DNA of 23,857 nucleotides, taken from positions 1 through 23,857 of IMG/VR virus record IMGVR_UViG_3300024048_000016; one strand, written 5' to 3'. Shown in pieces: positions 19,035 to 22,741 of this stretch. How positions within the stretch are numbered: position 1 is the stretch's first letter; each line of letters begins with the position of its first letter. The DNA comes from a virus. A program made the translations under genes and the position numbers. The notes beneath the pieces were generated by a model, which made no database searches, was not told the origin of the DNA, and worked only from the letters and a program-made list of their open reading frames with translations.

Positions 19035-19631
19035 TTAAATCTCCTCGCGATAGTTAAAATTTTCAAAGTCCTCTTGATAGGAATCTATTACCATAAACTT
19101 GGTATCCCTATCATAGTACGTTTGCCATGCCTCGTGCGAATTCCCGTTCAGTTGTGGCAGTTGAGGTAGATTTAATTCAAATTCATGGGCTAATGATTCA
19201 TAGTCTTCCTTTAAATTTTCAAATTCTAAAATAATATCTGATCTAATCTTATTTTTGAGCGATAACCATTTGGTTTGACTCCAAGCATGGAAAAAATCTT
19301 CTTCTTTAGACCTCTCACAATATGCCTGGACAAATTCCGGAAACTCCGGTTCTTTGTCTTGATATACTCTCCATAACTGTGTTGTTCTTGCAAATTCATA
19401 AGCCGAGACTATCCGATCAAAGGGATTTCTCACGCATCCTATAATTAGTAAATTTTCAAAATCGATGAGATTCTCCTTAGCAAAGGCTAAGTTTCTGTGT
19501 CTCGGATGAAACATCCCGTGAATCGGGGGCATTCTTTCCGTGACGGATCTCATCGCATCGTAATCTTTAAAAGCCTCGTACAAACTGGTACTGGCATTCT
19601 TCGGTATGTTAATAAAGAGGAATTTATTCAT
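19035..19631 (-). CDS. Sulfotransferase family 2 protein
   Basis: This 198-residue enzyme carries both PAPS-binding signatures of Golgi-type and bacterial family-2 sulfotransferases. The 5'-phosphosulfate loop is FINIPKNASTSLY (residues 6-18, Lys11). The 3'-phosphate site is CVRNPFDRIVSAYEF (66-80, Arg68 and Ser76). The MFHPRHRN segment (40-47) supplies histidines that could act as the catalytic base. The C-terminus, VIDSYQEDFENFNY, matches the 'iY..Df..FgY' end of the family. It would transfer sulfate from PAPS to a sugar or other hydroxyl group; the acceptor is unknown. The ATG overlaps the upstream GNAT-like stop as ATGA and the SD of the next gene lies in its end, so it is built into the packaging/portal operon. 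Nothing appears truncated. Confidence 0.8.
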   Translation of the reverse strand: MNKFLFINIPKNASTSLYEAFKDYDAMRSVTERMPPIHGMFHPRHRNLAFAKENLIDFENLLIIGCVRNPFDRIVSAYEFARTTQLWRVYQDKEPEFPEFVQAYCERSKEEDFFHAWSQTKWLSLKNKIRSDIILEFENLKEDYESLAHEFELNLPQLPQLNGNSHEAWQTYYDRDTKFMVIDSYQEDFENFNYREEI

Positions 19632-22157: not shown

Positions 22158-22439
22158 CTATTTTGTTACCTTCCCAAATATCTCAGTGTAATCATAAACC
22201 TTGATGTCCTTATACGCCAAACCTTTCAGTGGAGCAAGAAACACCACATCTCCAACCTCCAAATCAGTTACCTGGTTTCCAATGTCAACCACAGTGCCGA
22301 TTTCGCAGTCGTACCGTCTTTTGCTGATCGCAGCATCTGCGCCGTAGGTCATTCCCGTATCCGGCAATATAATATCACCCGCATCCGGTCGCATTACACG
22401 AATGTTATTCACCGCAACGTTGTTGTTTAATATTTTCAT
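22158..22439 (-). CDS. GroES-like co-chaperonin
   Basis: The 93-residue reading starts at the ATG at 22439, with AAGGAG 5 nt upstream; the open frame extends further up only through the tRNA-like gene. The sequence follows the GroES fold: NNIRVMRPDA, then the mobile loop AGDIILPDTG (residues 20-29; compare SAGGIVLTG in E. coli GroES, where the IVL tripeptide docks on GroEL), then CEIGTVVDIGNQ (45-56), then LEVGDVVFLAP (60-70) and a C-terminal YKDIKVYDYTEIFGKV. The ring would cap the host GroEL and help capsid folding, as T4 gp31 does for gp23. The loop segment is present and hydrophobic, so it should bind GroEL. No GroEL gene is in the window. Confidence 0.8.
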   Translation of the reverse strand: MKILNNNVAVNNIRVMRPDAGDIILPDTGMTYGADAAISKRRYDCEIGTVVDIGNQVTDLEVGDVVFLAPLKGLAYKDIKVYDYTEIFGKVTK

Positions 22440-22460
22440 ACTATCTCCTTTATTTAAAAA

Positions 22461-22551
22461 TGGTGGGAGGGGAGGATTCGAACCTCCGATAAAGTGCGTC
22501 CTGCCCATATTAATAGCTCCGCTCAATCTTTATCCTATTTCACACACTCCC
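22461..22551 (-). ncRNA. tRNA-like RNA with encoded CCA end
   Basis: On the minus strand a 91-nt element starts GGGAG (pairing with CTCCC at the 3' side) and ends CTCCCACCA. It has a perfect T arm: 5-bp GGAGG/CCTCC around TTCGAAT, the canonical TTCGAAT loop. The D arm cannot be formed, and no normal anticodon arm with T33 and a 5-bp stem fits. Instead GATAAAG pairs with CTTTATC (7 bp) directly before the T arm and encloses an irregular extended stem-loop (GCG with CGC, and GCTAT with ATGGGC across one bulge). This is the layout of a tmRNA tRNA-like domain or another tRNA mimic more than of a translating tRNA. It could also be a decayed tRNA or a copy of a host tRNA end used for integration. 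T5 follows the CCA, then the GroES-like SD. Confidence 0.6.
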
Positions 22552-22576
22552 AAAAGTTTTTTTATCATTGTATTCT

Positions 22577-22741
22577 TTAAAATATGTCTTTGCTGTCCTC
22601 AACTATTTCATTTGCTACATCAGCAACTTCCTCAACTATGGGTTTAACTATTTCCTCAACTATGGGTTTAACTACAGCTTTCGAAACATTGGCCGCAATC
22701 TTAATGGGCGCAGTTACAATATCTAGTAAACTTCCAAACAT
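22577..22741 (-). CDS. 54-aa amphipathic protein with a tandem repeat
   Basis: A perfect AGGAGGT lies 6 nt before the ATG at 22741. The 54 residues begin MFGSLLDIVTAPIKIAANVS and then contain VVKPIVEE directly repeated as IVKPIVEE, ending VADVANEIVEDSKDIF. The middle has alternating hydrophobic and charged residues and is likely helical and amphipathic. Such small MFGS... proteins occur in phage structural or packaging regions; I do not know a function. It ends 25 nt before the tRNA-like RNA. Confidence 0.6.
   Translation of the reverse strand: MFGSLLDIVTAPIKIAANVSKAVVKPIVEEIVKPIVEEVADVANEIVEDSKDIF
22628..22675. repeat. 24-bp tandem direct repeat inside the 54-aa gene
   Basis: Two adjacent 24-bp units (22628-22651 and 22652-22675) differ only at the last base. 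They encode the doubled KPIVEE-containing octapeptide. The near identity indicates a recent duplication, and the number of copies may vary between phages. Confidence 0.85.

Follow-up and report, generated by a model that had tools for sequence, protein, structure and literature searches.

What is a tRNA-like RNA doing directly in front of a phage protein-coding gene: is it a working tRNA, the remnant of one, or an element acting on the gene that follows? Such an element lies on the minus strand (22552–22461, approximately 91 nt) of the 23,857-nt stretch of DNA analysed here (the window), a 23.9-kb virus contig. The window encodes a PF12236 portal and a PF19821 capsid protein, which makes the source phage podovirus-like, and its large-terminase gene is kin to annotated phage terminases. 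Upstream of the element there is a small gene of 54 aa (22577–22741, minus strand; PHROG 9123, unknown function), and downstream a gene of 93 aa for a GroES-like protein (22158–22439, minus strand; PHROG 3188, E = 4e-4). The CCA end of the element is followed, after a gap of 12 nt, by the Shine-Dalgarno (SD) sequence GGAG (22445–22448, minus strand), whose complement CUCC is part of the acceptor strand, and then by the AUG of the GroES-like gene. A relative of this locus was found in IMGVR contig 3300028840_002244 (L003/L346), with a terminase 78% and a GroES-like protein 48% identical to those of the window. Both phages also carry a sulfotransferase-family gene (PF03567, E = 9e-15), located in the window between the terminase and portal genes (19035–19631, minus strand) and 64% conserved in L003.

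Parts and fold of the element

Read 5′ to 3′, the element has the form UGGGAG-UGUGUGAAAUAG-GAUAAAG-[33 nt]-CUUUAUC-GGAGG-UUCGAAU-CCUCC-C-CUCCCA-CCA. Its 5′ acceptor-like strand GGGAGUG (22545–22551; minus strand, as for all parts below) recurs with all seven bases unchanged at the corresponding position in the relative (L003/L346:1581–1587), and the U at 22552 is also able to pair with the last A. The T arm, called perfect in a first-pass annotation of this DNA, is indeed canonical (GGAGG-UUCGAAU-CCUCC, 22471–22487), with a loop that conforms to TTCRANY, and the encoded CCA is present at 22461–22463. The acceptor stem described in the same annotation exists, but it is imperfect: the 3′ acceptor-like strand C-CUCCC-A (22464–22470) is one base shorter than CACUCCC-A, so that GGGAGUG opposite C-CUCCC allows five or six pairs, depending on the reading. 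Together, the acceptor and T stems stack to 11 pairs, interrupted by a bulge or mismatch, vs. the 12 bp ending in NCCA of a functional tRNA. By inspection of the sequence and its predicted fold, neither a D arm nor an anticodon arm with a 7-nt loop pairs in the element, and the similarity of the interior (22495–22544) to tRNA isotypes was not above that of shuffled sequences. The D arm is thus lacking, as had been claimed. A long irregular hairpin was said to replace the anticodon arm; the absence of that arm holds, while the hairpin itself, with a weak predicted pairing of GAUAAAG (22534–22528) with CUUUAUC (22494–22488), does not stand out, since neither it nor the overall fold exceeded shuffled sequences in predicted stability (z = −0.39, with 61 of 200 shuffles equally or more stable). 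A pseudoknot of AAUAG/CUAUU with GAUAAAG/CUUUAUC was considered and rejected, as a 5-bp A/U match is expected by chance on a rough estimate. The interior also contains a GGAG with an AUG 8 nt later (22520–22506); this frame continues without a stop codon across the T arm to join the GroES-like gene and would add 23 residues (MGRTHFIGGSNPPLPPFLNKGDS) to its product, an extension that has no equivalent in L003.

The combination of a T arm, an acceptor of at least 5 bp, and CCA occurred once in the real window; 600 Markov copies of that entire sequence contained three occurrences. With approximately 0.005 occurrences expected per window under these loose criteria, it is unlikely to be due to chance. 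Since the fold is no better than that of shuffles, the tRNA likeness resides in sequence and layout and not in unusual stability. A general scan for NCCA-ending stems proved too noisy for use. Comparison of the interior with isotype profiles (nhmmer) gave scores at shuffled level for Leu, Tyr, Trp, Thr, Arg, and Glu; the rows for Ser, Gly, Val, Met, and Lys came out identical and are not reliable. Among acceptor-matched tRNAs, the best match of the interior was tRNA-Leu, yet 59 of 500 shuffles were as good.

Relationship to phage class II tRNAs

As is characteristic of a degenerate phage tRNA, the ends of the element could be traced to real tRNAs. The pattern GGGAGTG...CACTCCCACCA with 65–95 nt spacing was found in 72 viral contigs (73 elements), mostly as class II phage tRNAs, of which 40 were called as Tyr, 6 as Leu, and 4 as others, with 23 elements uncalled. 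In bacterial genomes, the T arm followed by CACTCCCACCA was detected approximately 113 times, chiefly in tRNA-Tyr (71), Val (18), and Leu (4). The 3′ end of the element, GGAGGTTCGAATCCTCC-C-CTCCCACCA, is one T-loop base and one deletion apart from the end of the tRNA-Tyr of L394 (GGAGGTTCGAGTCCTCCCACTCCCACCA); setting GGAGGTTCGAATCCTCC-CCTCCC-ACCA against GGAGGTTCGAGTCCTCC-CACTCCC-ACCA identifies the base missing in the window as A67, opposite U6. Very probably, then, the element is tRNA-derived, and it is most likely what remains of a phage tRNA gene. As to origin, the decayed tRNA suggested by the first-pass annotation is the best fit, the ends matching phage class II tRNAs minus one base.

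At the equivalent place in L003, upstream of its GroES-like gene, there is an element of 106 nt (GGGAGTGG...CCACTCCCACCA) with the ends GGGAGTG...CACTCCCACCA and a missing T loop. Alignment showed that its GGCAAGTTG-CAACCCACTCCCACCA equals GGCAAGTTGTTCGATTCAACACACTCCCACCA of the L329 phage tRNA-Tyr minus the 7-nt T loop, plus one change; L329 and five others share the tRNA-Tyr 3′ end GGCAAGTTG[TTCGATT]CAACACACTCCCACCA. Despite having no T arm, this element has a stable predicted fold, better than all shuffles (z = −3.14). A second stable hairpin, likewise better than all shuffles (z = −3.47), lies 25 nt beyond it (L003:1706–1765), carries the end motifs of the first (GAGUGGUG...CCACUCC-AUUU..CGGAGG), and immediately precedes the SD of a gene encoding 99 aa. 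The elements of the window and L003 are identical in GGGAGTG and CTCCCACCA, that is, in 7 + 9 end bases, with 14 of 16 in common around the CCA. The retained parts differ, being the T arm in the window and the full acceptor in L003. That the element represents a new class of tRNA-like RNA in phages, another reading offered by the first-pass annotation, is not shown: the closest relative has no T arm, and its interior does not align with that of the window element. Searches with the GroES-like and TerS-like proteins gave no relatives beyond these two contigs, and no DNA relatives were found among annotated phages. At the start of L003 (1–1330), two diverged TerS-like genes stand head to head with near-identical 3′ parts; the contig start is a reverse repeat of a later segment, either an inverted duplication or an assembly artefact.

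Among more distant relatives, ARAGORN called tRNAs upstream of TerL in 7 of 78 loci. In addition, L024 (4810–4872; identical in L023) contains a D-armless tRNA-Lys(UUU)-like element of approximately 60 nt, directly before a 148-aa reading frame and 1.1 kb upstream of the terminase. The tRNAs together with this remnant point to recurrent gain and decay of tRNAs upstream of TerL. Control of the downstream mRNA, as raised in the first-pass annotation, may occur, yet a location immediately before a gene is in itself ordinary: 194 of the 1189 phage tRNAs in the fetched loci have an SD and a start codon within 45 nt downstream. We also noted three groups of phage elements, either tRNAs or tRNA-like, in which the acceptor has 6 bp (an 11-bp acceptor and T stack) and the end is ACCA. 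Two of these, L092, L096, and L159 (approximately 110 nt, with about 36–41 nt in place of the anticodon loop) and L094 and L097 (72 nt), were missed by ARAGORN; the third comprises L116, L119, L126, L134, L154, and L172 (75 nt, Met/Ile CAU-like).

Possible roles of the element in the GroES-like gene leader

Four-fold degenerate sites of the window and L003 are 30% (TerL) and 32% (portal) identical, i.e., randomised, and the shared ends are therefore not a leftover of neutral drift. Either they are under selection, or a common tRNA was separately gained and lost in each phage. Set against a randomised background, the outer ends shared by the two lineages compared suggest retention, perhaps for use in a leader switch. 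The explanation we tentatively prefer, and to which we give a little less than an even chance, is that a class II tRNA remnant has had its ends kept for an action in cis on the GroES-like gene. The ancestor would have been a phage tRNA gene of class II, Tyr or Leu in type, whose acceptor was GGGAGUG/CACUCCC-A-CCA. Loss of the D arm, the anticodon arm, and one acceptor base would have made it unable to work as a tRNA and left the acceptor/T-arm half within the leader of the GroES-like gene, where, we infer, the acceptor ends would have been retained through their action on this gene. Of the two folds envisaged, the tRNA-like one would pair GGGAG with CUCCC and leave the SD sequence GGAG open; the alternative would pair CUCC with GGAG and close it. 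A cut at the 5′ end, for instance by RNase P, would favour the SD-open fold.

Fold predictions were made for leaders of different extent. For an RNA starting at the element, the predicted acceptor probability was 0.87 and the SD was half open; with at least 40 nt of upstream sequence and 40 nt of coding sequence included, the acceptor probability was 0.10–0.14 and the SD was paired at 0.70–0.87. Of the 31 SD-bearing genes of both phages, 2 have a CTCC no more than 30 nt ahead of the SD, exactly those behind the elements. Against a switch, the energy predictions vary with the folded length, the acceptor of the first L003 element is predicted to form always, and CUCC/GGAG complementarity is inherent to any such acceptor combined with any SD. 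We regard as rather unlikely the more specific model in which a former phage tRNA acts as a cis-acting leader switch of a podovirus lineage, with acceptor strands serving as anti-SD and anti-anti-SD ahead of the GroES-like gene, an optional T arm, and, in the relative, a tandem pair before another gene. If the acceptor ends are under selection, the locus would clearly exemplify the recycling of a phage tRNA gene into an element of translation control or mRNA processing.

The element may instead have no present role, as the inert relic of a phage tRNA gene that either decayed where it stood or reached the two phages separately; this we consider a serious possibility, although short of an even chance. 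The missing D and anticodon arms, the acceptor deletion, and the loss of a different part in L003 are what decay would produce, and the window fold, no better than shuffles, is in line with it. Only 9 differences separate the window from the same-species contig L006 over 12.1 kb, and one of them (22501) falls within the element interior. The tRNAs and the decayed tRNA-Lys-like element upstream of TerL in relatives also fit a relic, as do the tRNA pseudogenes reported in phages (PMC1524935). Less easily accommodated are acceptor ends common to two phages with randomised four-fold sites, an interior without detectable tRNA likeness next to ends that are canonical bar one deletion, unlike uniform neutral decay, and L003 elements with predicted folds superior to those of all shuffles. 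On the other hand, had both phages gained common tRNAs independently, shared ends would also result without any upkeep. The shared ends against a saturated background lead us to lean slightly toward co-option over an inert relic. Were the element only a relic, it would be one more degenerate phage tRNA, and would explain why such elements are missed by tRNA finders.

Three further readings are improbable to different degrees. Bacterial RNase P reads a 12-bp stack (as a ruler), the T loop, and RCCA contacts (PMC10731613), and phage M3 RNA, C4 RNA, and mRNAs are among its known substrates (PMC11143913). With its T loop, RCCA, and 11-bp stack, the element comes close to these features, so that the acceptor/T-arm half and CCA might be read as a tRNA mimic by RNase P and 3′ enzymes, splitting the transcript or freeing a stable, trans-acting RNA of approximately 91 nt. 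We consider this unlikely, because the stack has 11 bp with a bulge and not 12, and because predictions for the full transcript give weak pairing of the acceptor; the absence of a T loop in L003 further downgrades RNase P recognition as a conserved function. Even less probable is that the element functions as a highly unusual tRNA or as a minimal tmRNA. In outline, the acceptor, T arm, CCA, stemless D region, and helix at the anticodon/P2 position do correspond to the tRNA-like domain of tmRNA, as the first-pass annotation had pointed out. The likeness goes no further: ARAGORN called no tRNA gene at the element, Rfam models called neither tRNA nor tmRNA (the best sub-threshold tRNA match was tRNA-Sec, with 14 bits vs. 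a cut-off of 47), and a 91-nt RNA with neither an anticodon loop nor a tag reading frame with a resume structure is hard to reconcile with either function. Least probable of all is an attachment core that duplicates the 3′ end of a host tRNA and serves site-specific integration, a reading brought to mind by the resemblance of the 3′ part to a tRNA end. The exact 24-nt 3′ end of the element had no copy in approximately 85,000 bacterial and archaeal species genomes, and the pairing 5′ acceptor strand is not needed by an att core. No integrase match was obtained in the searched subset of proteins of the window, the contig being a fragment. The element is not a functional tRNA, not a tmRNA, and, on the available tests, not an attachment site.

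Comparison with known systems

In its unpaired D region and in the helix that replaces the anticodon arm, as well as in its T arm, acceptor, and CCA, the element is similar to the tRNA-like domain of tmRNA; unlike tmRNA, it has no mRNA-like domain, no pseudoknots, and no match to tmRNA models. With the non-tRNA substrates of RNase P (phi80 M3 RNA, P1/P7 C4 RNA, and his operon mRNA) it shares an RCCA stem inside a longer transcript, yet its stack is a predicted, bulged one of 11 bp and its relative is without a T loop. The phage class II tRNAs (Tyr GUA and Leu; GGGAGUG/CACUCCC-A-CCA) agree with it in the acceptor 5′ strand, A73-CCA, the canonical T arm, and a total length of approximately 91 nt, whereas one acceptor base, the D arm, and the anticodon arm are absent from the element and the interior is not alignable. 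tRNA pseudogenes have been reported in phages, e.g., in T4-like phages (PMC1524935), and like these the element is of tRNA origin and not an intact tRNA. It differs from them in being solitary, in its place beside a GroES-like gene, and in having acceptor ends in common with a remote relative.
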